NCBI RefSeq assembly: GCF_038006205.1
Contig: NZ_JBBOUU010000001.1
Coordinates: 746,001-810,000 of the forward strand
Origin: Solibacillus sp. FSL R7-0668
Lineage (GTDB): Bacteria > Bacillota > Bacilli > Bacillales_A > Planococcaceae
Direction: 5' to 3'
DNA length: 64,000 bases
Shown: one piece after another, positions 9,959 through 40,926 of the stretch
How positions within the stretch are numbered: the first letter of the stretch is position 1
Layout of the letters: each line of letters starts with the position of its first letter
Notes under the pieces: model-generated
What the model saw: only the letters and a program-made list of their open reading frames with translations
Told to the model about the DNA's origin: nothing
Databases searched by the model: none
Program-made: the position numbers and the translations under genes

Positions 9959-9988
9959 GGGTTTATTAAGAAAAGTGAGGTGTCGGTG

Positions 9989-12900
9989 ATGACATTGCGT
10001 GTAATTTCTGGTCGTGCAGGTACGGGGAAATCCACATTCATTCAGAAGGAAATTGTCGACGATTTAAAGACAAATGCACTTGGCCATCCGATTTTTATTT
10101 TAGTACCAGACCAAATGACGTTTTCGACAGAGTATGAGCTGACGAATCATTACGAAATTGAAGGGCTGATGCGCGCGCAAGTCATGACATTTAAACGACT
10201 TGCTTGGTTTGTGCTGCAAAATGAGGGCGGTATTGCGCGTGAACGTATTGATAATACTGGCTATCGCATGCTATTACGCCGAATTTTAGAAGAACATCAA
10301 GAAGAATTTCTCCTCTTTAAGCAGGCCGCGGGAAAACGAGGCTTTACAAAAGAAGTCGAGCAAATTTTAAAGGAATTTAATCAGTACAATATTGATGTAG
10401 CTTCGATTCAACCACTCATAGAGGCATTGCGCTTAAATGGTGCGAGTGAAGTGCTGCTCCATAAAATGCATGATATCGAGATTATTTTACAGCAATTGCA
10501 GCTGCGCATTGGGGCTGAATATGTTGATGGCGACGGCTATTTTCCATTATTGCTAGAGCGTATCCCAAAGATGGAAAGTCTACGCGAGACACATGTTTAC
10601 TTAGACGGCTTCGTGTCGTTTAATGGCCAGGAATTTTCCATTTTAAAAGAATTACTCCTCTATGCGAAGCGTGTCACATTAGTGCTGCCTATGGATGATC
10701 CGCAGGCTGAAAAGCTAGACGGTTCAACGTTTTATCGTGCGGCCATGACCTACGATAAAGTGAAGCATGAATTGGCCAAGCTACAATTTGAACGAGGGAT
10801 TGTCATTGAAGAAGAGCCGCGCGTGCATTTTACAATCAATTACCGTAGCAATAACCGCGATTTACAGCAAATTGAACGCAGCTTTAATGAGCCGTTTGTG
10901 ACACCTGTCGAAGCATTGGGGAATGCGCAAATTATCGAAGGAGTGAATCCGCGCGCAGAGGTGCAAGGTATTGCCCAGGAAATAAAGAAATTAATTGTCG
11001 AGCAAGGGCTGCGTTATAAGGATATCGGAATCATGTATCGACAAGCAGATGTCTATGATCCAATCATTGGTACGACATTTACACAATATGAAATTCCCTA
11101 TTTCTCCAACGAAAAGCGTGCGATGCTGTACCATCCGCTCATTGAATTTAGTCGTTCCGTTTTAGAAATTATTACGTCGAATTGGAAATATGAGCCCGTA
11201 TTTCGAAGTGTGAAAACCGACCTCTATTTTCCCTACAATGCGAATTTAGCAACGATGCGCGACCGTGCGGATATTTTAGAGAACTTTGTCATCGCCAAGG
11301 GGATTGTGCATGATCGTTGGTTCGATGACAAGGTTTGGCATTATCGCCGATTTAAATCATTAGAAAAAGTAAATGCGGTGCAAACAAAGGATGAGCAAGA
11401 GCACGAAGCACTATTAAAATCGGTACGTGATTTAATTGTTGAGCCGGTTGCAAACTTGCAGCGAAAGTTAAAGGGGAAGGTAACGGGTCGTGACATTGTT
11501 GTTGCCTTGTATGAGTTTATGGAAGCGCTTGATGTTTATAAAAAGCTAGTGAAAATGCAGGAGCAAGAGGAAAAAACGCATGCACTGCAAAAGTCACTGG
11601 AGCATGAGCAAGCATGGAACGGCTGGGTTCATATTTTGGAGCAATTTGATTTCATGTTTGGCGATAAGGAAATGATGCTAGAGGATGCTGCACAAATTTT
11701 AGATGAAGGCTTTGAATCCTTACAGTTTTCAAGTGTGCCACCAACACTTGATGAAGTAACGGTTTCGACATTAGAATTTGCCCGATTCGGTAATAAAAAG
11801 GCGATTTTCATTATTGGCGTCAACGATGGGGTCTATCCAATGCGTATGGATGAGGGGGGGCTTTTATCGGATGCAGAGCGTGAAGTATTTGAAAAGGCGG
11901 ATATCGAGCTGGCCCCTGGGATTAAGAGCCGTCTGTTACAGGAGAGCTTTTTATTTTACCGCGCCATTGCTTCACCGACTGATTATTTATACATTACGTA
12001 TGCGAGCGCGGATGAAGAAAGTAAAGGGAAGCTCCCATCGATTTATATCAATCGTTTGCATAAAATGTTCGAGGTAAAATCAGATGAAAAAACAGAACCA
12101 ATCCGCACATTAAAACAGCGTCAAGTGGTGGCCGACCCACTGGATGAGCAATATGCGGAATATGTGCTGGATTATTTACGCCATCCATCCCCTGCGATTG
12201 GCTTTTTAATGACACAGCTCAAACAAGCACAATTTGAGCGTCGGGAAATTCCGGAACAATGGCAGGCGTTAAAGGTGTTTTATGAGCGGGAAGGCAAATG
12301 GCAGCATGTGCTCCATCGTGTATCCCAACCCCTTTATCAAACGAATGAAGCGCAAAGCCTGACAGAAGAAACTGCAACAAAGCTTTACGGCGAGAACTTT
12401 TTAGCGAGTGTGTCGCGCATTGAAACGTTTTATAGCTGTCCCTATTCGCATTTTGCCTCGTATGGCTTGAAATTACGAGAGCGTACGGAATTTAAGCTAG
12501 AATCCTTTGCGATGGGTGATTTATTCCATGAGGCGATTCGTACGATTTTATCCGAAAAGGAGCAAACGATTGTCCTTGATACGTATGTTGCCTGCTATAA
12601 AAAAGCGGATGACACGATTTCAAAGCTTGTTGATTATTTCTCCTATAATATTTTAAAAAGCAGCCATCGATTTGAGTATATTAAAACGAAGCTTGTAAAA
12701 ATTGTGGCGCGTACCATTTATGCTTTAGTCAATCAAAGCGAGCTATCCAAATTTAAGGCGATTGCTCATGAGAAGCCATTTGGAAAACGCGATGACAAAA
12801 ATACAGAACAAGGTGACCAACATCCATTAGATGCGTTGGAAATCGAGCTAGATGATCAACGGAAAATGTATGTGCGTGGCCAAATTGACCGAATAGACGC

Positions 12901-13621
12901 TTATAAGGATGCGCAAAATCTCTATTTACGTGTCATTGACTATAAATCAAGCGGGCGCAAATTGGATTTCAATGAAGTGTATAACGGGATTTCATTGCAG
13001 TTATTAACATATTTGGATGTTGCGATGCAAAACATCCCAATACTTGCGCAGGAAGGGAAGCTGATCAAGGATTTATCAGAGCTTGAAAATATTATTGTGC
13101 AAGCAGCGGGTATGTTTTATTTACATGTGCATAATCCACTTATTTCTACGGAGGATTATGAGCAGCTGGAGAAGGTAGAGAGCCTGCGCCAAGAAAAGTT
13201 CAAGCTAAGTGGCTATATGCTGAAGGATGCGGAAGTGGCTAATTTAATGGATACATCGCTTGAGCCGAGTAAGGCATCCATCATTGTTCCGGCGAAGTTT
13301 AAAAGTGGTGAGGAATTAGATTTTGATAGTCGATCCTCAAAAGTTATTGAACCTGATGAAATGAAAAACCTCCAGCAATTTGTCCACTATAAATTCCGTC
13401 AAGCCGGCAATGAAATATACAAAGGCAATACGGAAATTAAACCGTACAGCTTAGGGAGTCAAAAAGCGTGCACGTTCTGTAATTTTAAAGCGCTTTGCCA
13501 ATTTGATGAAACGGAAACAGGCAATCACTTTAACGAGCTGAAAAAGCAAAAGGACGAAGAGGTATTCGATCATATGAAAAAGGTGGTGTGTGTACATGAT
13601 GATTCCAACGAAGCCGAGTGA
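9989..13621 (+). CDS. addB: ATP-dependent helicase/nuclease subunit B (AddB/RexB)
   Basis: AddB joins AddA to form the Chi-regulated helicase-nuclease that resects double-strand breaks, the Gram-positive counterpart of RecBCD. The product has 1210 residues. Visible are the N-terminal Walker A GRAGTGKST (about residues 7-15), the RecB-like nuclease motif VIDYKSSGRKLDF (about 983), and four cysteines for the Fe-S staple: one in SCPYSH (about 816) and three in ACTFCNFKALC (about 1161-1170). ATG 9989 follows AGTGAGG (9974-9980); an earlier in-frame GTG at 9980 overlaps this ribosome-binding site. It overlaps addA by 26 bases. Confidence 0.96.
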   Translation: MTLRVISGRAGTGKSTFIQKEIVDDLKTNALGHPIFILVPDQMTFSTEYELTNHYEIEGLMRAQVMTFKRLAWFVLQNEGGIARERIDNTGYRMLLRRILEEHQEEFLLFKQAAGKRGFTKEVEQILKEFNQYNIDVASIQPLIEALRLNGASEVLLHKMHDIEIILQQLQLRIGAEYVDGDGYFPLLLERIPKMESLRETHVYLDGFVSFNGQEFSILKELLLYAKRVTLVLPMDDPQAEKLDGSTFYRAAMTYDKVKHELAKLQFERGIVIEEEPRVHFTINYRSNNRDLQQIERSFNEPFVTPVEALGNAQIIEGVNPRAEVQGIAQEIKKLIVEQGLRYKDIGIMYRQADVYDPIIGTTFTQYEIPYFSNEKRAMLYHPLIEFSRSVLEIITSNWKYEPVFRSVKTDLYFPYNANLATMRDRADILENFVIAKGIVHDRWFDDKVWHYRRFKSLEKVNAVQTKDEQEHEALLKSVRDLIVEPVANLQRKLKGKVTGRDIVVALYEFMEALDVYKKLVKMQEQEEKTHALQKSLEHEQAWNGWVHILEQFDFMFGDKEMMLEDAAQILDEGFESLQFSSVPPTLDEVTVSTLEFARFGNKKAIFIIGVNDGVYPMRMDEGGLLSDAEREVFEKADIELAPGIKSRLLQESFLFYRAIASPTDYLYITYASADEESKGKLPSIYINRLHKMFEVKSDEKTEPIRTLKQRQVVADPLDEQYAEYVLDYLRHPSPAIGFLMTQLKQAQFERREIPEQWQALKVFYEREGKWQHVLHRVSQPLYQTNEAQSLTEETATKLYGENFLASVSRIETFYSCPYSHFASYGLKLRERTEFKLESFAMGDLFHEAIRTILSEKEQTIVLDTYVACYKKADDTISKLVDYFSYNILKSSHRFEYIKTKLVKIVARTIYALVNQSELSKFKAIAHEKPFGKRDDKNTEQGDQHPLDALEIELDDQRKMYVRGQIDRIDAYKDAQNLYLRVIDYKSSGRKLDFNEVYNGISLQLLTYLDVAMQNIPILAQEGKLIKDLSELENIIVQAAGMFYLHVHNPLISTEDYEQLEKVESLRQEKFKLSGYMLKDAEVANLMDTSLEPSKASIIVPAKFKSGEELDFDSRSSKVIEPDEMKNLQQFVHYKFRQAGNEIYKGNTEIKPYSLGSQKACTFCNFKALCQFDETETGNHFNELKKQKDEEVFDHMKKVVCVHDDSNEAE

Positions 13622-14963
13622 TGTGCAATGGACCGATGTACAGTGGAAGGCGATATATGCAGAGGGGCATGATGTATTAGTATCTGCCGCAGCCGGTTCA
13701 GGGAAAACAGCGGTGTTAATTGAGCGTTTAATTCAAAAAATTTTAGCGCCAGAGGATAAACGAATCGATGTCGATGAATTACTCGTTGTCACCTTTACGA
13801 ATGCATCGGCTGCTGAAATGCGCAATCGTATGGCGGAAGCGCTAGAAAAAGCATTGTCAAAGGACCCCAGTAATGCCTTTTTACGACGCCAGTTAAGTCT
13901 ATTAAATAAGGCACAAATTTCAACGTTGCACTCATTTTGCTTGTCGATTTGTCGGGAGTATGCCTATACGATTGATTTAGATCCTGGCTTCCGACTGGCA
14001 AGCACCGAGGAAGCATCACTCTTACAGGATGATGTGTTAATGGACGTGCTAGAAAAGGCGTATCGGGGTGATATGGAGGCGTTGTTTTCAAAGGACGAGC
14101 TCTATACATTAGTTGATAGCTTTGCGTCAGATCGGAGTGACCAGGCGATTGAATTATTATTACAGGAAATGTATAAGGTGTCGCGCGTGCAGCCGAAACC
14201 CTATGAGTGGCTACGAGCGTTACCGGCGAAATACGATATCGACCCAGACGCAGCCATTGATACATTAGCCATTGCACAGGAAATTCGCCCATTTATCCTA
14301 GCCAGTTTACAAGAGGCAGCGAGTCGATTAGAAAAGGGCTTGCAAATTGTCTCAGTGGAGCCAGCGCTTGAAAAAAATAAAGCGCTTTTTGAGGGAGAAT
14401 ATACAGCGGTAAAGGCTGTTTATGAGGCGCTCCTGCAAGGCACATGGGAGCAGGCCTATGCCTTAATGCCAGCGATTGAATTTGGTCGTATTAAAGCAGC
14501 AACGAAAAAGGATACAGAGGAAGACCGAGCTAAGTATGCGGTAGCAAAGGCGCATCGTGATCAAGCCAAAGCGACGATTGCGGGGGTAAAGGAAACATTT
14601 TTCGCACGGCACCCGAAGCTATATGTGCAGGAAATGGCTGCGACAAAGCCGATTATAGAAACATTAGTGAAGCTTACAATTGAATATAGTGAGGCATTTA
14701 AAAAGGCCAAGCAAGAGCGTGGCTTACTTGATTTTTCAGATTTAGAGCATTATGCGTTGGAAATTTTATCTGCATCCAATCACGAGGTCACGCCACCACT
14801 CCCATCAGATGTGGCACTTGGCTACCAAAAACGCTTTAAAGAAGTGCTTGTGGACGAGTATCAAGATGTGAATTTTTTACAAGAAACCATTTTACAGCTT
14901 GTGAAAAGCGGTGATGAAGCGAGCGGGAATATGTTCATGGTCGGTGACGTGAAACAAAGCATC
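13596..14963 (+). CDS. addA: ATP-dependent helicase/nuclease subunit A, 5' exon (AddA/RexA)
   Basis: First 456 codons of AddA, the UvrD-type helicase with nuclease domain. Walker A AAAGSGKTAVL is at about residues 31-41, motif Ia VVTFTNASAAEMR near 63, Walker B VDEYQDVN near 420, and the exon ends in helicase motif III GDVKQSI. The reading frame would hit TAA at 14973 inside the intron, giving a 459-residue fragment. Removing bases 14964-17493 joins the frame exactly between codons (ATC then TAC) and restores the motif as QSI-Y-AFRLAEP, giving 1239 residues, the normal AddA length. Start ATG 13596 has AGGTGG (13581-13586). Thus I regard the gene as intron-interrupted, not broken. Confidence 0.93.
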
Positions 14964-15563
14964 GTGCGCCCATAAGGGTATTGTATATTTCACCAATTGG
15001 CGGTGAATAAACTACAGAAACGGTTTATATATCAGCCGACTTATCTTGGCGGGAAACCAAAGAGGGAGTGTAGCATGTCGGTCAAAGTCATAAGTTAGCC
15101 TAAACGGAAAGGCTACGACTGAATGGCGAGATATAAAAGATTCATATGAGGAAGAAGGCTAAACTGCTTGAAGAACAGTCCGAGTGGGGTCATGTTGTAA
15201 CCATCTAGGAAACCGTTTGAAACCTGGAATCTATTCTGTTCAGCGTATTAAATGCTTGCGTCTGAACATGGGAAAGTGTACTAGATTGATGCACAATCCT
15301 AGTTTCTGATTGACGAAAGAATAGACACACTTCAAGATTGAAGAAAAGGATGAACGTTCCTTCCGACAATGAATCGAGCCTGTATACAATATACTAAATG
15401 GGGATTACCTAAGTTGGAACGCCATTAGGCTATGTACAAAGGTACTGAATATCCGATATGGTAACGGAGCTCTCGTAGTAGTCAGAGATAGGGAAAGCCT
15501 ATTACATGGCGAAGGGGAGCAGCTTATAACGTATAAACAATAAAGAAAGGAGCGAAATGCTCT

Positions 15564-17381
15564 ATGCAAAGTTCAGAAATTGTTTTATACAATCTATCGA
15601 AACAAGCAATGAAGGACGGCTATGAATTTGACCGTCTATACAGACATTTATACAATGAAGATTTTTATATAAAAGCCTATACAAAGATATACAAAAACAA
15701 AGGTAGTGCAACAAAAGGTATCGACGAAGAAACGGCAGACGGGTTTGGTGAAGAAAAGATTCAAGCAATAATTGAATCTTTAAAAGATGAAAGCTATCAA
15801 CCGAAACCAGTACGTCGTATTTATATCCCAAAGAAAAACGGTGATACAAGACCACTTGGTATCCCTACATTTACAGACCGTTTAGTTCAAGAAGTTTGTC
15901 GAATGCTTTTAGAATCAATTTATGAACCGAACTTTTCAAATCATTCTCATGGTTTTAGACCGAAAAGAAGTTGTCATACAGCATTAATCGAAATTAAGAA
16001 AACCTTCACGGGTGTTAACTGGTTCATTGAAGGCGATATAAAAGGATTTTTTGATAATATTAACCATCAAATACTCATTAATATTTTGCGTAAACGAATT
16101 AAAGATGAAAAGTTTATTCGTTTAATGTGGAAGTTCCTAAAAGCAGGGTTCGTTGAAGATTGGCGATTCCAGAAAACGTATAGTGGAACTCCGCAGGGCG
16201 GTATTATCAGTCCCTTACTCGCAAATATTTATCTGAATGAATTTGATGAATATGTTGAAAATGAATTAAAACTTTCATTTGATTTAGGTAAACCAAAGAT
16301 AGGACGTAAACGAAATACGGAATATCGAAAATATGATATGCGTAACCAGCGTTTGCATAAAAAGATTAATGCAACAGAAGATGAAAACTTACGACAACAG
16401 ATGATTGAAGAATACAAGGCAAATAAAAAAATACTTTTAAATTTACCGTACTATGACCCAAATGTTGAAACGTATAAAGCAATGAAATACGTGCGTTATG
16501 CGGATGATTTTATAATTGGTGTAAATGGTAGTAAAGAGGATTGTGAACGTTTAAAACAAACGATGAAAGAGTTCTTGAAAGACCGTTTGCAATTAGAATT
16601 ATCGGAAGAAAAAACACTCATTACACATAGTACTAAGTTTGTAAAGTTTCTAAGCTACGACATTTCAATTAGCCATGATTTAAGTGTGGCAAAAGATAAA
16701 AACGGTGTAAAAAAACGTAAATATAGAGGATATGTACAATTACGAATTCCTAAAGGAACGATTGAAAAAGTAATTGTAAAAAATAAAATGGTCAAAGATA
16801 TCGATGCAAATCAATGGGATATGTTGCATCGGCCAAGACTTGTCGGTTTATCTGATTTAGAAATCATCGAAACATATAACGCTGAACTACGAGGAATTTA
16901 CAATTATTATGCTTTGGCAGAAAACGTAAGTCGAAAAATGTGGCAACTGCGTTATGTAATGGAATATAGCTGTCTGAAAACACTGGCGAATAAATACAAA
17001 TCCACAGTATCAAAAATGAAGGTTAAGTTTAAGCAAGGCAAGTACTGGGGCGTAAAGTATGAAACAAAGCAAGGTGAAAGAATAGCTTACTTTTATAAAG
17101 ATGGTTTTGAAAAAAAGAAAGAAATCTTCCAATCAGAAATGGACCAACTACCAAATTTGTATGTATATCAAGGCAGAAATGATTTAGAAAAACGACTTAG
17201 TGCAAAACAATGTGAATTATGCGGAGATAACCACCCAGATACAAAGTTCGAAATTCATCATGTGAATAAAATTAAGAATTTAAAGGGCAAAGAATACTGG
17301 GAATGGACAATGCTCGCAAAGCAACGTAAAACACTGGTTGTATGTATAAAATGTCATAAAGAAATTCATAAACAACGATAG
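15564..17381 (+). CDS. ltrA: Group II intron-encoded protein: reverse transcriptase, maturase, HNH endonuclease
   Basis: A 605-residue multifunctional protein that helps its intron RNA splice and retrohome. Reverse transcriptase blocks are visible: RPLGIPTFTDRLVQE (block 2), FIEGDIKGFFDNI (3), GTPQGGIISPLLANIYLNEFD (4, quoted in part) and the catalytic YADDF (5). The X/maturase domain follows at about 420-530. The C-terminus has an HNH endonuclease with CELC, EIHHVNKIKNLKG and CIKCHKEIH. No stops or deletions, so it looks active. AAAGGAG (15546-15552) precedes ATG 15564. It lies in intron domain IV, the normal location. Confidence 0.95.
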   Translation: MQSSEIVLYNLSKQAMKDGYEFDRLYRHLYNEDFYIKAYTKIYKNKGSATKGIDEETADGFGEEKIQAIIESLKDESYQPKPVRRIYIPKKNGDTRPLGIPTFTDRLVQEVCRMLLESIYEPNFSNHSHGFRPKRSCHTALIEIKKTFTGVNWFIEGDIKGFFDNINHQILINILRKRIKDEKFIRLMWKFLKAGFVEDWRFQKTYSGTPQGGIISPLLANIYLNEFDEYVENELKLSFDLGKPKIGRKRNTEYRKYDMRNQRLHKKINATEDENLRQQMIEEYKANKKILLNLPYYDPNVETYKAMKYVRYADDFIIGVNGSKEDCERLKQTMKEFLKDRLQLELSEEKTLITHSTKFVKFLSYDISISHDLSVAKDKNGVKKRKYRGYVQLRIPKGTIEKVIVKNKMVKDIDANQWDMLHRPRLVGLSDLEIIETYNAELRGIYNYYALAENVSRKMWQLRYVMEYSCLKTLANKYKSTVSKMKVKFKQGKYWGVKYETKQGERIAYFYKDGFEKKKEIFQSEMDQLPNLYVYQGRNDLEKRLSAKQCELCGDNHPDTKFEIHHVNKIKNLKGKEYWEWTMLAKQRKTLVVCIKCHKEIHKQR

Positions 17382-17397
17382 ATTTGTTATAAGTGGA

Positions 17398-17431
17398 GAG
17401 CCGTATACTCTGAGAGGAGTACGTACGGTTC
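17398..17431 (+). other. Group II intron domain V (catalytic core)
   Basis: A 34-base hairpin beginning GAGCCGTATAC and ending GTACGTACGGTTC, with the AGC catalytic triad in the first strand and a GAGA-type loop. Length and both strand sequences match bacterial domain V. Confidence 0.92.
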
Positions 17432-17493
17432 GGGGAGGGGTTCTCCGGAAACCTGCTACAGCAATGTAGCAAGGCGCTGGGTTCCTACTCTAC

Positions 17494-19845
17494 TACGCGT
17501 TTCGACTAGCAGAACCGCGCCTGTTTCTTGATAAATATAAGCGCTTTGAAACAGACCCAATCGACAACGGCATGAAAATTGATTTGAATGCTAACTTCCG
17601 AAGTCGTTCTGAAGTACTAGAAGGGACAAACTATGTCTTTGAGCAAATTATGGATGAGGAAGTCGGCGAAATCGACTATGATGAGCAAGCTAAGCTTAAG
17701 TTTGGGGCGAGCTATGATGCACAGCAGGTTCCGATTGAGCTCGTATTACTAGAAGGTGATTCCAAAACGCAAATGATTTCAAGTGAAGAGGACGATGCAG
17801 AGGAAGAAAGTATTAATGCTGCGCAACAGGAAGCACGATATATTATTGAACGTATTCGTGGATTTGTTGAAAATGGTGGACAAGTATACAACCCAAAAAC
17901 GAAATCGATGCGTCCTGTTCAATATCGGGACATTGTTGTATTAATGCGCTCGCGTTCTTGGTATACAACATTTGCTGAGGAATTTAAAATGGCAGGCTTA
18001 CCGTTATACGCCGAAACAGACGGGGGCTATTTTGAGTCACTTGAAGTGATGATTATGATTAATACACTCAAGGTAATCGACAATCCGTATCAGGATATTC
18101 CGCTCGCATCCGTGCTACGTGCGCCATTTATTGGTCTAACAGAAAATGAGCTCGCAGCGATTCGTTTAGTGAATGAAAAGGTACCATTTTATGATGCGCT
18201 AAAGCAATTCCGTGAACAGGAAAGTAGCGCGATGTCAAATGCAATGGCGCAAAAGCTCGATCAATTCTTTCGCTTGCATGAAAAATGGCGGAATTACTCG
18301 CGTCACGGGGCGTTAGCTGATTTAGTATGGCAGGTGTATTTAGATACGAATTATATGGAAATGGTCGGCGCCATGGCAAATGGTAAGCAGCGTCAGGCAA
18401 ATTTACGTGCACTGCATGATCGCGCGTTAAGCTATGAAAAATCATCATTCCGCGGGCTATTCCGCTTCTTACGCTTTATCGATCGCATGCATTCGCGCGG
18501 CGATGATTTAGGCATTGCCAAATCAATTAGTGAGGCCGATGATGTTGTCACACTGCTAACGATTCATAAATCAAAAGGATTAGAATACCCCATCGTATTT
18601 GTAGCAGGGATGAGTAAAAACTTTAATACGAAAGATTTAGGCGCTCGTTATATTTTTGACCAAGACTTTGGCTTAGCGATTAAATCCGTAAATCCAGATT
18701 TAAATATTATTTCAACATCACTACCACATTTATATGTAAAGGAAAAGAAGCTTGCAAAACTAAAGGCTGAAGAAATGCGCATTTTATATGTGGCAATGAC
18801 GCGTGCCAAAGAGCGTTTAATATTAGTTGGCTCCATTAAAGAATGGCAAAAGCAAAAGGAAGAATGGCAGTTTTATCAGGATTTACAGGAGAAGGTGCTG
18901 CCGAAATATGTGCGTTCAAAAGCGAATAATTATTTAAGTTGGGTTGGTCCGGCAGTTGCACGCCATGACGATTTCCTATTTGCCAATTACCGCTCGGAGA
19001 AAGCGACAAAAACTGAGAAATGGACCATCACAGTCGTGCCAAATAGCGATTATTTAGCAGCGAATGCATCGACAGAAGTCAATGAGAATCCTATAAAGCA
19101 AGTGGTGAATGAGGAATTGGTCACATTGCTAACGAATCGATTTTCTGCGGTCTACCCATACGAGCAGGCGGTAACGAAAAAATCAAAAACGTCTGTGTCA
19201 GAGCTGAAGCGTCTAGAAAGCTTGCAGCAAATGGAGGAAGAGCAGCTATACAATAGCGATGCCAAGCGTTATGTAAAAACAAATGTGCCAAGCTTCATGC
19301 TGAAAGGGAAAAAGAATGAACGAGAACTTTCTGCAACAGAAATTGGTACCGCGGTACACGCCGTGATGCAGCATATGCCTCAGCAAGGCTTTACAACACT
19401 TGAACAAGTAGAGAGCTTTATTCAGTCATTAGTCGAGCGTCAATTATTACAACAGCTTGAAGCAGAGGCCGTACAGCCGGAGAAGGTGCTTGCGTTTTTC
19501 CAAACAGAAATTGGGCAGCGCTTTACGCAGGCGACACAAATTTTACGTGAAATACCGTTCACACTTAGTTTAAAAGATCAAGATGGGGATGCACAAATTA
19601 TTCAAGGGGTCATTGACTGCTTATTTGAGGATGCAAACGGCCAGTGGGTGTTGCTAGATTATAAAACTGATTTTATCGCCCCATCGATTTTAGACGATTT
19701 TGAGAAAGTTAAACAAAAAATGACAAAAGCCTACCAAATTCAATTAAACTATTATCAACATGCTGTGCAGGTCATTAAACGTATTGAAATAAACGAAAAA
19801 TATTTATATTTGTATAGCATCGGTCAACAGTTGAAAATGGATTAG
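17494..19845 (+). CDS. addA: ATP-dependent helicase/nuclease subunit A, 3' exon (AddA/RexA)
   Basis: Second exon of AddA: 783 codons plus stop. It opens with the remainder of helicase motif III (Y-AFRLAEP), then motif IV region, motif V TIHKSKGLEYPIVFVAGM (about 330 residues in) and motif VI ILYVAMTRAKERLILVG. The C-terminal RecB-family nuclease has ELSATEIGTAVH, GVIDCLFED and LLDYKTD, keeping the catalytic Asp-Lys pair. Arg usually found right after the motif III Tyr is Ala here, a change tolerated in other UvrD-type helicases. Stop codon TAG is followed directly by the ribosome-binding site of the next gene. sbcD and sbcC, which follow addA in B. subtilis, are absent. Confidence 0.93.
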   Translation, partial: YAFRLAEPRLFLDKYKRFETDPIDNGMKIDLNANFRSRSEVLEGTNYVFEQIMDEEVGEIDYDEQAKLKFGASYDAQQVPIELVLLEGDSKTQMISSEEDDAEEESINAAQQEARYIIERIRGFVENGGQVYNPKTKSMRPVQYRDIVVLMRSRSWYTTFAEEFKMAGLPLYAETDGGYFESLEVMIMINTLKVIDNPYQDIPLASVLRAPFIGLTENELAAIRLVNEKVPFYDALKQFREQESSAMSNAMAQKLDQFFRLHEKWRNYSRHGALADLVWQVYLDTNYMEMVGAMANGKQRQANLRALHDRALSYEKSSFRGLFRFLRFIDRMHSRGDDLGIAKSISEADDVVTLLTIHKSKGLEYPIVFVAGMSKNFNTKDLGARYIFDQDFGLAIKSVNPDLNIISTSLPHLYVKEKKLAKLKAEEMRILYVAMTRAKERLILVGSIKEWQKQKEEWQFYQDLQEKVLPKYVRSKANNYLSWVGPAVARHDDFLFANYRSEKATKTEKWTITVVPNSDYLAANASTEVNENPIKQVVNEELVTLLTNRFSAVYPYEQAVTKKSKTSVSELKRLESLQQMEEEQLYNSDAKRYVKTNVPSFMLKGKKNERELSATEIGTAVHAVMQHMPQQGFTTLEQVESFIQSLVERQLLQQLEAEAVQPEKVLAFFQTEIGQRFTQATQILREIPFTLSLKDQDGDAQIIQGVIDCLFEDANGQWVLLDYKTDFIAPSILDDFEKVKQKMTKAYQIQLNYYQHAVQVIKRIEINEKYLYLYSIGQQLKMD

Positions 19846-33960: not shown

Positions 33961-35446
<1,486 letters not shown>

Positions 35447-40566: not shown

Positions 40567-40880
40567 CTGTTTTAAAACGAAATTATGTTATTTTTCTCAG
40601 TTATTTTTTGGTAGGGTCAAGCTAATGGAAAAAACAGATTGCTTTATGAAGCCTTTTATATCAATAGTTTGAAGTATTTTTCATAGCGAAGAGTATGAAA
40701 ACCGAATTAAAACGCTTACAAATCAATGGAAACGCTTTCTATTTGACGAATTTGTGAAAAAAGGCTAGTTTCATTGCAACAATTATTATTCCATGATAGA
40801 GTAATATACGTGAAATAAATCACATAACAAACATACACCCCTTTGTTTGAACGTGAACATTTCTCCCATCCCCTTTGTGA
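40567..40880. other. Gene-free stretch between two terminators, possible small RNA locus
   Basis: About 310 bases with no open frame that I can support. It holds an FNR-type palindrome at 40809-40824 and is bounded by the pepF terminator and by a second strong terminator at 40881-40926 that ends no visible gene. AATAATAA-type -10 sequences occur on the - strand around 40782-40788. A noncoding transcript is possible but unproven. Confidence 0.3.
40809..40824. promoter_or_regulatory. FNR-like palindrome
   Basis: CGTGA-AATAAA-TCACA differs by one base from the Bacillus FNR consensus TGTGA-N6-TCACA, and GTGA-N6-TCAC is perfect. fnr itself is in this window (26248-26952). Confidence 0.45.
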
Positions 40881-40926
40881 AAAAGAGGCGCACTATCTGT
40901 CGAGGATAGGGGCGCCTCTTTTGTTT
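40881..40926. terminator. Strong orphan terminator
   Basis: AAAAGAGGCGC (40881-40891) pairs with GCGCCTCTTTT (40912-40922), with T-runs available on both strands. No gene ends here on either strand. Confidence 0.75.

Follow-up and report, generated by a model that had tools for sequence, protein, structure and literature searches.

A group II intron between two codons of the DNA repair gene addA, at a site occupied repeatedly in related bacteria

INTRODUCTION

The window analyzed here, a stretch of 64,000 nt from Solibacillus sp. FSL R7-0668, contains the gene addA in two pieces with a group II intron between them. This arrangement raises the questions of how a DNA repair gene can carry an intron in a helicase motif, whether the gene can still yield its protein and whether the insertion is an isolated event. 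According to the accessible parts of published reviews, bacterial group II introns mostly avoid housekeeping genes (PMC4424553). The same rule, which the sequence-only reading of this locus had invoked, stands in the available part of Qu et al., where cases in essential genes are called intriguing (PMC6003770).

RESULTS

The intron separates two intact codons of addA

The features of the locus are collected in Table 1. We observed that the intron lies on the coding strand of addA and cuts between an ATC and a TAC codon in GDVKQSI/YAFR (the slash marks the insertion point), a sequence that we take to be motif III of SF1 helicases. The codons for Ile and Tyr are left whole, in phase 0, and not split as the sequence-only reading had assumed. 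The boundaries, GTGCG at 14964 and CTCTAC ending at 17493, follow from comparing the sequence with 13 congeners whose addA is uninterrupted and with the 11 further introns at this bond. Read without splicing, the exon 1 frame continues as GDVKQSIVRP and meets a stop three codons into the intron. Joining 14963 to 17494, in contrast, gives a single open AddA of 1241 codons from GTG 13590 without internal stop, in which motifs II and III are continuous again, so that excision indeed restores the frame; the 1239 residues given earlier hold for a start at ATG 13596 but not for the GTG. For exon 2 the family matches listed in Table 1 (PF13361, PF12705 and TIGR02785) were obtained with the frame from ATG 17572 as query.

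Table 1. Coordinates of the addA locus and of the intron within the window
Feature	Position	Strand	Description and evidence
addB	9980..13621	+	TIGR02773, 1071 bits; directly upstream of addA, overlapping it
addA exon 1	13590..14963	+	residues 1-458; ATP-binding motifs up to GDVKQSI; TIGR02785 1-432 of 1234, PF00580
complete group II intron	14964..17493	+	2530 nt, phase 0, between Ile458 and Tyr459
5' splice-site consensus GTGCG	14964..14968	+	sequence; identical in 12/12 introns at the bond
candidate EBS2 (UGUU)	15193..15196	+	pairs with AACA, -11..-8 of exon 1; aligned with the EBS2 loop of Ll.LtrB
candidate delta-EBS1 loop (CUAGAUUGAUGC)	15281..15292	+	two possible registers
hairpin with Shine-Dalgarno	15549..15563	+	directly 5' of the protein start; fold -6.3 kcal/mol
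intron-encoded protein, 605 aa	15564..17381	+	reverse transcriptase, maturase (X), HNH endonuclease; PF00078, PF01348, PF21368
domain V, 34 nt	17398..17431	+	RF00029
domain VI	17432..17493	+	fold; bulged A at 17487, 7th from the 3' end
addA exon 2	17494..19845	+	from Tyr459; helicase C-terminal and nuclease domains; PF13361, PF12705, TIGR02785 458-1230

On these sequence comparisons a chance arrangement can be regarded as excluded: the flanking frames fit TIGR02785, 13 congeners carry the gene uninterrupted and the intron protein matches LtrA. We thus confirm that addA is interrupted by a real, exactly bounded group II intron. Searching the genome with an AddA peptide gave two matches, the first among those listed, as expected for two fragments of one gene. 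Neither this search nor one for the UvrD family, which returned three weaker proteins besides addA and pcrA, found a second AddA in the genome, so that AddA would depend on splicing, as had been proposed. Elsewhere the window contains a T-box leader (35198-35426, minus strand, 130.9 bits) and an RsaE/RoxS small RNA (40810-40922, plus strand, 80.8 bits).

Anatomy of the intron and its pairing with the exons

The identification as a group II intron rests on its exact ends, its LtrA-like protein and a match to Rfam RF00029 at 17396-17493 (63.9 bits against a gathering score of 40, E 3.1e-10). Domains V and VI together fold at -42.7 kcal/mol (z -3.71), and none of 200 shuffled sequences was as stable. 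The bulged A of domain VI is the probable branch point in this predicted fold. Group II introns begin with GUGYG and end with AY; both ends fit this consensus, and GTGCG and CTAC are kept in all 12 copies at the bond. The hairpin with the Shine-Dalgarno sequence is less distinct (z -2.18; 10 of 200 shuffled sequences fold equally well). The intron protein was said to be intact, and we found reverse transcriptase, maturase X and HNH endonuclease all within its one open frame. It scores 317.8 bits with TIGR04416 (cut-off 300), aligns over residues 6-604 with LtrA (PDB 5g2x chain C, E 8.8e-187) and is 51.3% identical to LtrA of a Lactococcus plasmid record. The Rfam models of domains D1-D4 gave no match in 14900-17560 up to E 1; these models may not cover the subclass. 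One of the Rfam models, RF02004, is matched by the motif-II introns of another lineage described below. By the features tested, the element is a normal Ll.LtrB-type intron except for the missing D1-D4 match and the undecided EBS pairings.

For the exon-binding sites we use the labels EBS, delta and domain IVa as we assume them for Ll.LtrB, and we liken the Shine-Dalgarno hairpin to IVa. The window's EBS2 forms four of five pairs with exon 1, and its delta-EBS1 loop five of nine in the fixed register; an alternative EBS1 register (GAUGC/GCAUC) also gives 5 pairs. Three relatives reach 8-9 of 9 pairs in the EBS1 loop, two of them (L028 and L126) all nine. In the fixed register, covariation was not significant for EBS2 (p = 0.07) and gave p = 0.55 for delta-EBS1, both in 10 of the 12 introns, since the loops of L116 and L117 could not be aligned with confidence. 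A free-register test on all 12 introns was not significant either (p = 0.12 for delta-EBS1 and 0.10 for EBS2), with the third base of the 3' exon misread in six of them and the first two bases right. We rejected covariation as a proof of adaptation to the host, because an intron's own pairs were no better than shuffled ones; the pairings are candidates only. The serine at the site is encoded in the carriers by both TCN and AGY codons. Nor does the insertion mark the most conserved DNA of addA, an idea that we rejected as well: among 663 segments of 36 nt, compared in 30 uninterrupted genes, the one at the site has rank 166 and the one at motif II rank 111.

The same bond is occupied in other species

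As query against 261 genomes of the family we used an AddA peptide of 211 residues that includes motifs II-III. The survey covers the residues around motifs II-III of AddA and PcrA, and introns outside these motifs would escape it. The peptide matched 258 genomes at E 1e-25 or better, while in this search G107, G238 and G248 showed only weak helicase matches and no AddA. We found addA interrupted by group II introns in 16 of the 258 genomes. The Ile/Tyr bond is occupied in ten of them (G000, which is the genome of the window, G083, G126, G009, G014, G102, G093, G151, G006 and G025), a site 6 nt upstream, GDVKQ/S, in one (G070), and a site in motif II, after DEYQD and one further base, in eight (G253, G158, G162, G115, G139, G093, G151 and G070); three genomes carry two addA introns each. 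The other 242 genomes were called uninterrupted from the match table and not by reading each sequence, and 241 of them have one AddA match each at E 2.7e-68 or better. G095 had appeared as a further intron-split addA and was rejected as a partial tandem duplication (L131, G095:C3:888500-895500; the genome is listed at 7% contamination).

Relatives with an empty site, which the sequence-only reading had suggested looking for, are frequent: in the window's genus the bond is empty in 13 of 16 genomes and interrupted in three. In a collection of named species, 5 of 27 loci retrieved with the intron protein sit at the Ile/Tyr bond (Kurthia gibsonii, Lysinibacillus piscis, L. xylanilyticus, Bacillus sp. 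MRMR6 and Bacillus sp. EB106-08-02-XG196). Altogether 12 species, including two Bacillus species, carry an intron at this bond. The insertion had been called unusual, and against the published rule it is, but it is not isolated: with 10 of 258 family genomes and two Bacillus species occupied, the addA intron is no one-off, and other helicase motifs are used too. We consider it very probable that the element is an intact, probably mobile Ll.LtrB-type intron that has the motif III codons of addA as its homing site.

Introns in pcrA and in other genes

The only pcrA of the window's genome (L175, G000:C1:3496000-3502000) also contains an intron, of 2678 nt and in motif II (DEYQD followed by A/CA). 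It has a long open protein, and its excision gives a clean PcrA. The sequence-only reading had suggested checking whether other UvrD-type genes carry the same intron: the sole pcrA is interrupted, but at motif II and by an intron of another lineage, whose reverse transcriptase is 42% identical to that of the addA intron over 220 residues. A 183-residue PcrA peptide matched all 261 family genomes. Eleven weak matches were searched a second time, but not some of intermediate strength (G008, G027 and G247, for example, at E 1e-73 to 1e-79). Counting the window's genome, motif-II introns of pcrA were found in nine genomes (G000, G034, G070, G158, G162, G041, G253, G025 and G036). The pcrA genes of G191, G249 and G192 were rejected as intron carriers, as they show frame breaks in contiguous DNA. 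In the pcrA of G036 (L174) a second insertion with a GTGCG start was seen at DFDD, before motif II.

One intron of G025 lies at GDSDQSI/Y of pcrA, the counterpart of the addA Ile/Tyr bond, and is 66.5-69.3% identical to four addA introns at the bond versus 57.9-61.3% to four others. By Rfam matches and a reading of the wider stretch, this pcrA (L179, G025:C137:11000-27500, reverse strand) holds four introns: after TFTNKA, in motif II, in motif III and after RRLMY. TFTNKA and RRLMY are presumably motifs Ia and VI. G070 has two pcrA introns, in motifs II and VI; for motifs Ia and VI the intron ends were derived from the Rfam and protein matches and are not exact junctions. In G070 the first 560 nt of the ORF-less motif-II introns of pcrA (L169/L180) and addA (L124) agree to 98.6%, whereas the pcrA copy is at most 80.4% identical to seven other addA introns. 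In G253 the corresponding pair is 94.3% identical, against at most 88.2% for others. From these two genomes we conclude that introns pass between the paralogues, by homing or gene conversion, and in G070 (L124/L169) the introns that moved have no protein of their own. The pair in G158 (95.3%) proves nothing, since the introns of G162 and G115 are equally close. A pcrA intron is commoner in genomes with an addA intron (6 of 16 versus 3 of 242, p 1.6e-6, uncorrected for kinship).

Domain V matches number six in the window's genome, seven in G070 and, in G025, 14 over the cut-off plus two below it. In the window's genome two of the six introns interrupt the helicase genes described above, and two more lie in genes of the transglycosylase type, one on contig C2 and one, the host searched in Pfam, on the chromosome. 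For the last two no host gene could be read: L005 is followed by no open frame, and L006 comes after a sequence that looks hairpin-like by eye. Both G070 (L200) and G025 have a group II intron in polC, read over 50-residue 3' exons. A further intron of G025 probably lies in a topoisomerase gene, judged from a 50-residue 3' exon that matches below the Pfam cut-off (L205 and L181 are the two loci of G025), and another is found downstream of pcrA between two open frames, which we recognised by eye and take to be the DNA ligase LigA. The hosts of more remote relatives of the intron protein are radC, rtcB, an HU gene, a ribonucleotide reductase gene and transglycosylase genes; six host sequences were searched in Pfam and the others read by eye.

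Interrupted addA genes stay open while introns decay

The intron could have inactivated addA, splicing being absent or too weak and the strain living without AddAB. AddAB is dispensable in laboratory Bacillus, and the exon pairing predicted for the window is modest. Moreover, an Ll.LtrB-type intron is reported, in the accessible part of Qu et al., to lower the expression of its host gene, and Ll.LtrB is proposed there to do so by reopening the spliced mRNA (PMC6003770). We nevertheless consider inactivation improbable, as the spliced frames are fully open in 18 of 18 interrupted addA genes. These are the window and nine others at the bond, seven with motif-II introns (two of which also have the bond intron) and L124; apart from the window, the frames were read over the part aligned to AddA and not always from the start codon. 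The window's genome also lives with a group II intron in pcrA, of which it has a single copy. In B. subtilis, pcrA is essential.

A further argument comes from L032 and L123, two genomes of genus g14, one of them Lysinibacillus xylanilyticus. Their ORF-less motif-II introns are 88.7% and their addA genes 91.4% identical; the introns are about as diverged as the genes, so they have probably been present since the two split. Between the two AddA proteins dN is 0.029 and dS 0.372, a ratio of about 0.08, which is similar to that of an uninterrupted pair (L128/L129; dN 0.010, dS 0.092). In this one pair, which probably shared the ORF-less intron throughout, AddA has therefore been under purifying selection while interrupted. 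The introns of the two genomes at the Ile/Tyr bond are 97.3% identical and, by this comparison, may have moved later. In the window itself the intron may have come in recently, which could account in part for the open addA.

The introns at the bond are less uniformly preserved than their hosts. Eight of the 12 encode a full-length protein of 602-605 aa. In L125 and L032 the frame breaks in or just before the HNH domain; the remaining protein of L032 continues in another frame, so that a single-base event or a sequencing error is possible. The protein of L116 is without residues 240-302 and 535-605, and L117 has a 646-nt intron without ORF. The endonuclease domain is thus broken or missing in four of 12 introns, with all four host frames still open, and the genomes of L116 and L117 have only decayed introns at the bond.

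The introns are younger than their host genes

Compared with six other copies (L127, L126, L028, L029, L125 and L123), the window's intron is 88.8-92.8% identical, while the spliced addA genes are only 60.4-76.4% identical. Against the Bacillus copy L030 the values are 80.9% for the intron and 55.5% for addA, against L116 79.5% and 59.8%, and the two Bacillus carriers are 97.9% identical in the intron and 71.9% in addA. In all 11 pairs compared at the bond the introns are more alike than the host genes. At synonymous sites the same was observed: dS is 0.33, 0.38, 0.40 and 0.45 for the intron protein and 0.77, 0.70, 0.78 and 0.79 for AddA (window versus L127, L126, L028 and L029). Since AddA is near saturation in most pairs, we rely on the direction of this difference and not on its size. 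Synonymous differences are lower for the intron protein in 10 of 10 pairs, from 0.09 versus 0.80 between the two Bacillus species to the smallest gap, 0.71 versus 0.81, between the window and L030. By division, dN/dS of the intron protein is about 0.06-0.07 in the four window pairs, and the function of the protein is therefore under selection. With introns 89-93% and addA genes 60-76% identical, we conclude that horizontal transfer carries the element into one fixed site; the intron is younger than the genes that carry it, and it occupies this site in distant hosts.

Ten of the twelve carriers belong to one family, as would be seen if the shared bond reflected old vertical inheritance with many losses and not horizontal homing. 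The comparisons above run against such inheritance, as do the 13 empty congeners, three of which were compared and have an AddA nearer to the window's (89.8-92.2% identical) than that of the other two interrupted congeners (82.3-82.4%), and we regard it as very improbable. That two AddA fragments (residues 1-461 and a piece from ATG 17572) are translated separately, making splicing unneeded, is extremely improbable although both halves are long open frames, because this ATG lies 26 residues past the junction without an obvious Shine-Dalgarno sequence by eye, the second piece would lose the rest of motif III, and the intron ends conserved in 12 of 12 copies are explained by splicing or homing and not by fragment translation.

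DISCUSSION

Taken together, our findings point to a homing intron that addA has to splice. We infer that splicing takes place in vivo and that retrohoming is the transfer step. Transcription of addA would run through the intron, whose protein would be translated from the unspliced RNA and bind that RNA as maturase; the intron would then leave as a lariat, and the AddA mRNA would be left in frame. Lariat and protein together could reverse-splice into empty addA alleles, the intron being subsequently copied to DNA. Given that it occupies a conserved stretch of a repair gene, the intron should rarely be deleted cleanly, incoming DNA of other genera would offer the same target, and only splicing-competent copies would survive.

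On a wider view, we lean towards the interpretation that several intron lineages behave like inteins: they would home into the ATPase-motif codons of addA and pcrA, hop between these paralogues within a genome and lose their mobility genes while splicing persists, thereby making repair and replication enzymes depend on several splicing events, up to four in one pcrA. Judged from the genomes, intron splicing appears to be a requirement in some bacteria for making basic DNA-handling enzymes. We found no report of group II introns in addA or pcrA in the literature, as covered by titles and the beginnings of abstracts, subscription papers lying outside. The part of PMC8919778 that was available leaves helicases unmentioned, and PMC3636086 contains none of the helicase names sought. 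A relative of Ll.LtrB in a repair gene of a dozen species goes against the rule that such introns stay out of housekeeping genes, for which, in the case of Ll.LtrB, the reopening of spliced host mRNA by the excised intron has been put forward as a reason (PMC6003770). Related strains with and without the intron form natural pairs in which the tolerance of the host can be tested, and likewise whether introns retain splicing as they lose mobility, the course assumed for the forerunners of the introns in organelles and nuclei.

The intron itself is of a known kind, and the surprise is the repeated, intein-like use of helicase motifs. Ll.LtrB of Lactococcus lactis, which we take to be a group IIA intron with the mitochondrial-like protein LtrA, shares with the window's intron the 5' end GTGCGCCCA, the 34-nt domain V, domain VI and the position of the EBS2 loop in an alignment by eye, as well as, again by eye, a hairpin-forming stretch before the protein start; the two proteins are about 51% identical over their full length. 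The hosts differ, Ll.LtrB residing in the relaxase gene of a mobilizable plasmid and the window's intron in a chromosomal repair gene. In a search for a vector, no match reached 60% identity among the 580 plasmid records with E 1e-100 or better or among the six phage records with E 1e-50 or better; neither a plasmid nor a phage vector was found, and a pattern scan gave no viral contig. Another group II intron in a housekeeping recombination gene, though a different one, is that in recA of the Bacillus-related thermophile Geobacillus kaustophilus, which Chee and Takami are said to have described in 2005.

Movement between homologous helicase genes, as seen here, has a parallel in near-identical introns, one in the helicase gene of a phage and one in a remote bacterial homologue of that gene, according to the accessible part of that report (PMC12350094). 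One protein of this phage is 41.8% identical to the window's intron protein. The published example, as far as that part goes, is a single phage-bacterium case with a SNF2-type phage helicase, whereas here SF1 helicases on chromosomes are affected in many genomes and at several motifs. Inteins in replication and repair proteins, as described in the available part of PMC5874633, occupy the same niche, being mobile splicing elements in DNA-handling genes. They are, however, removed from the protein by unrelated machinery, whereas the intron of the window is of the kind removed from RNA.
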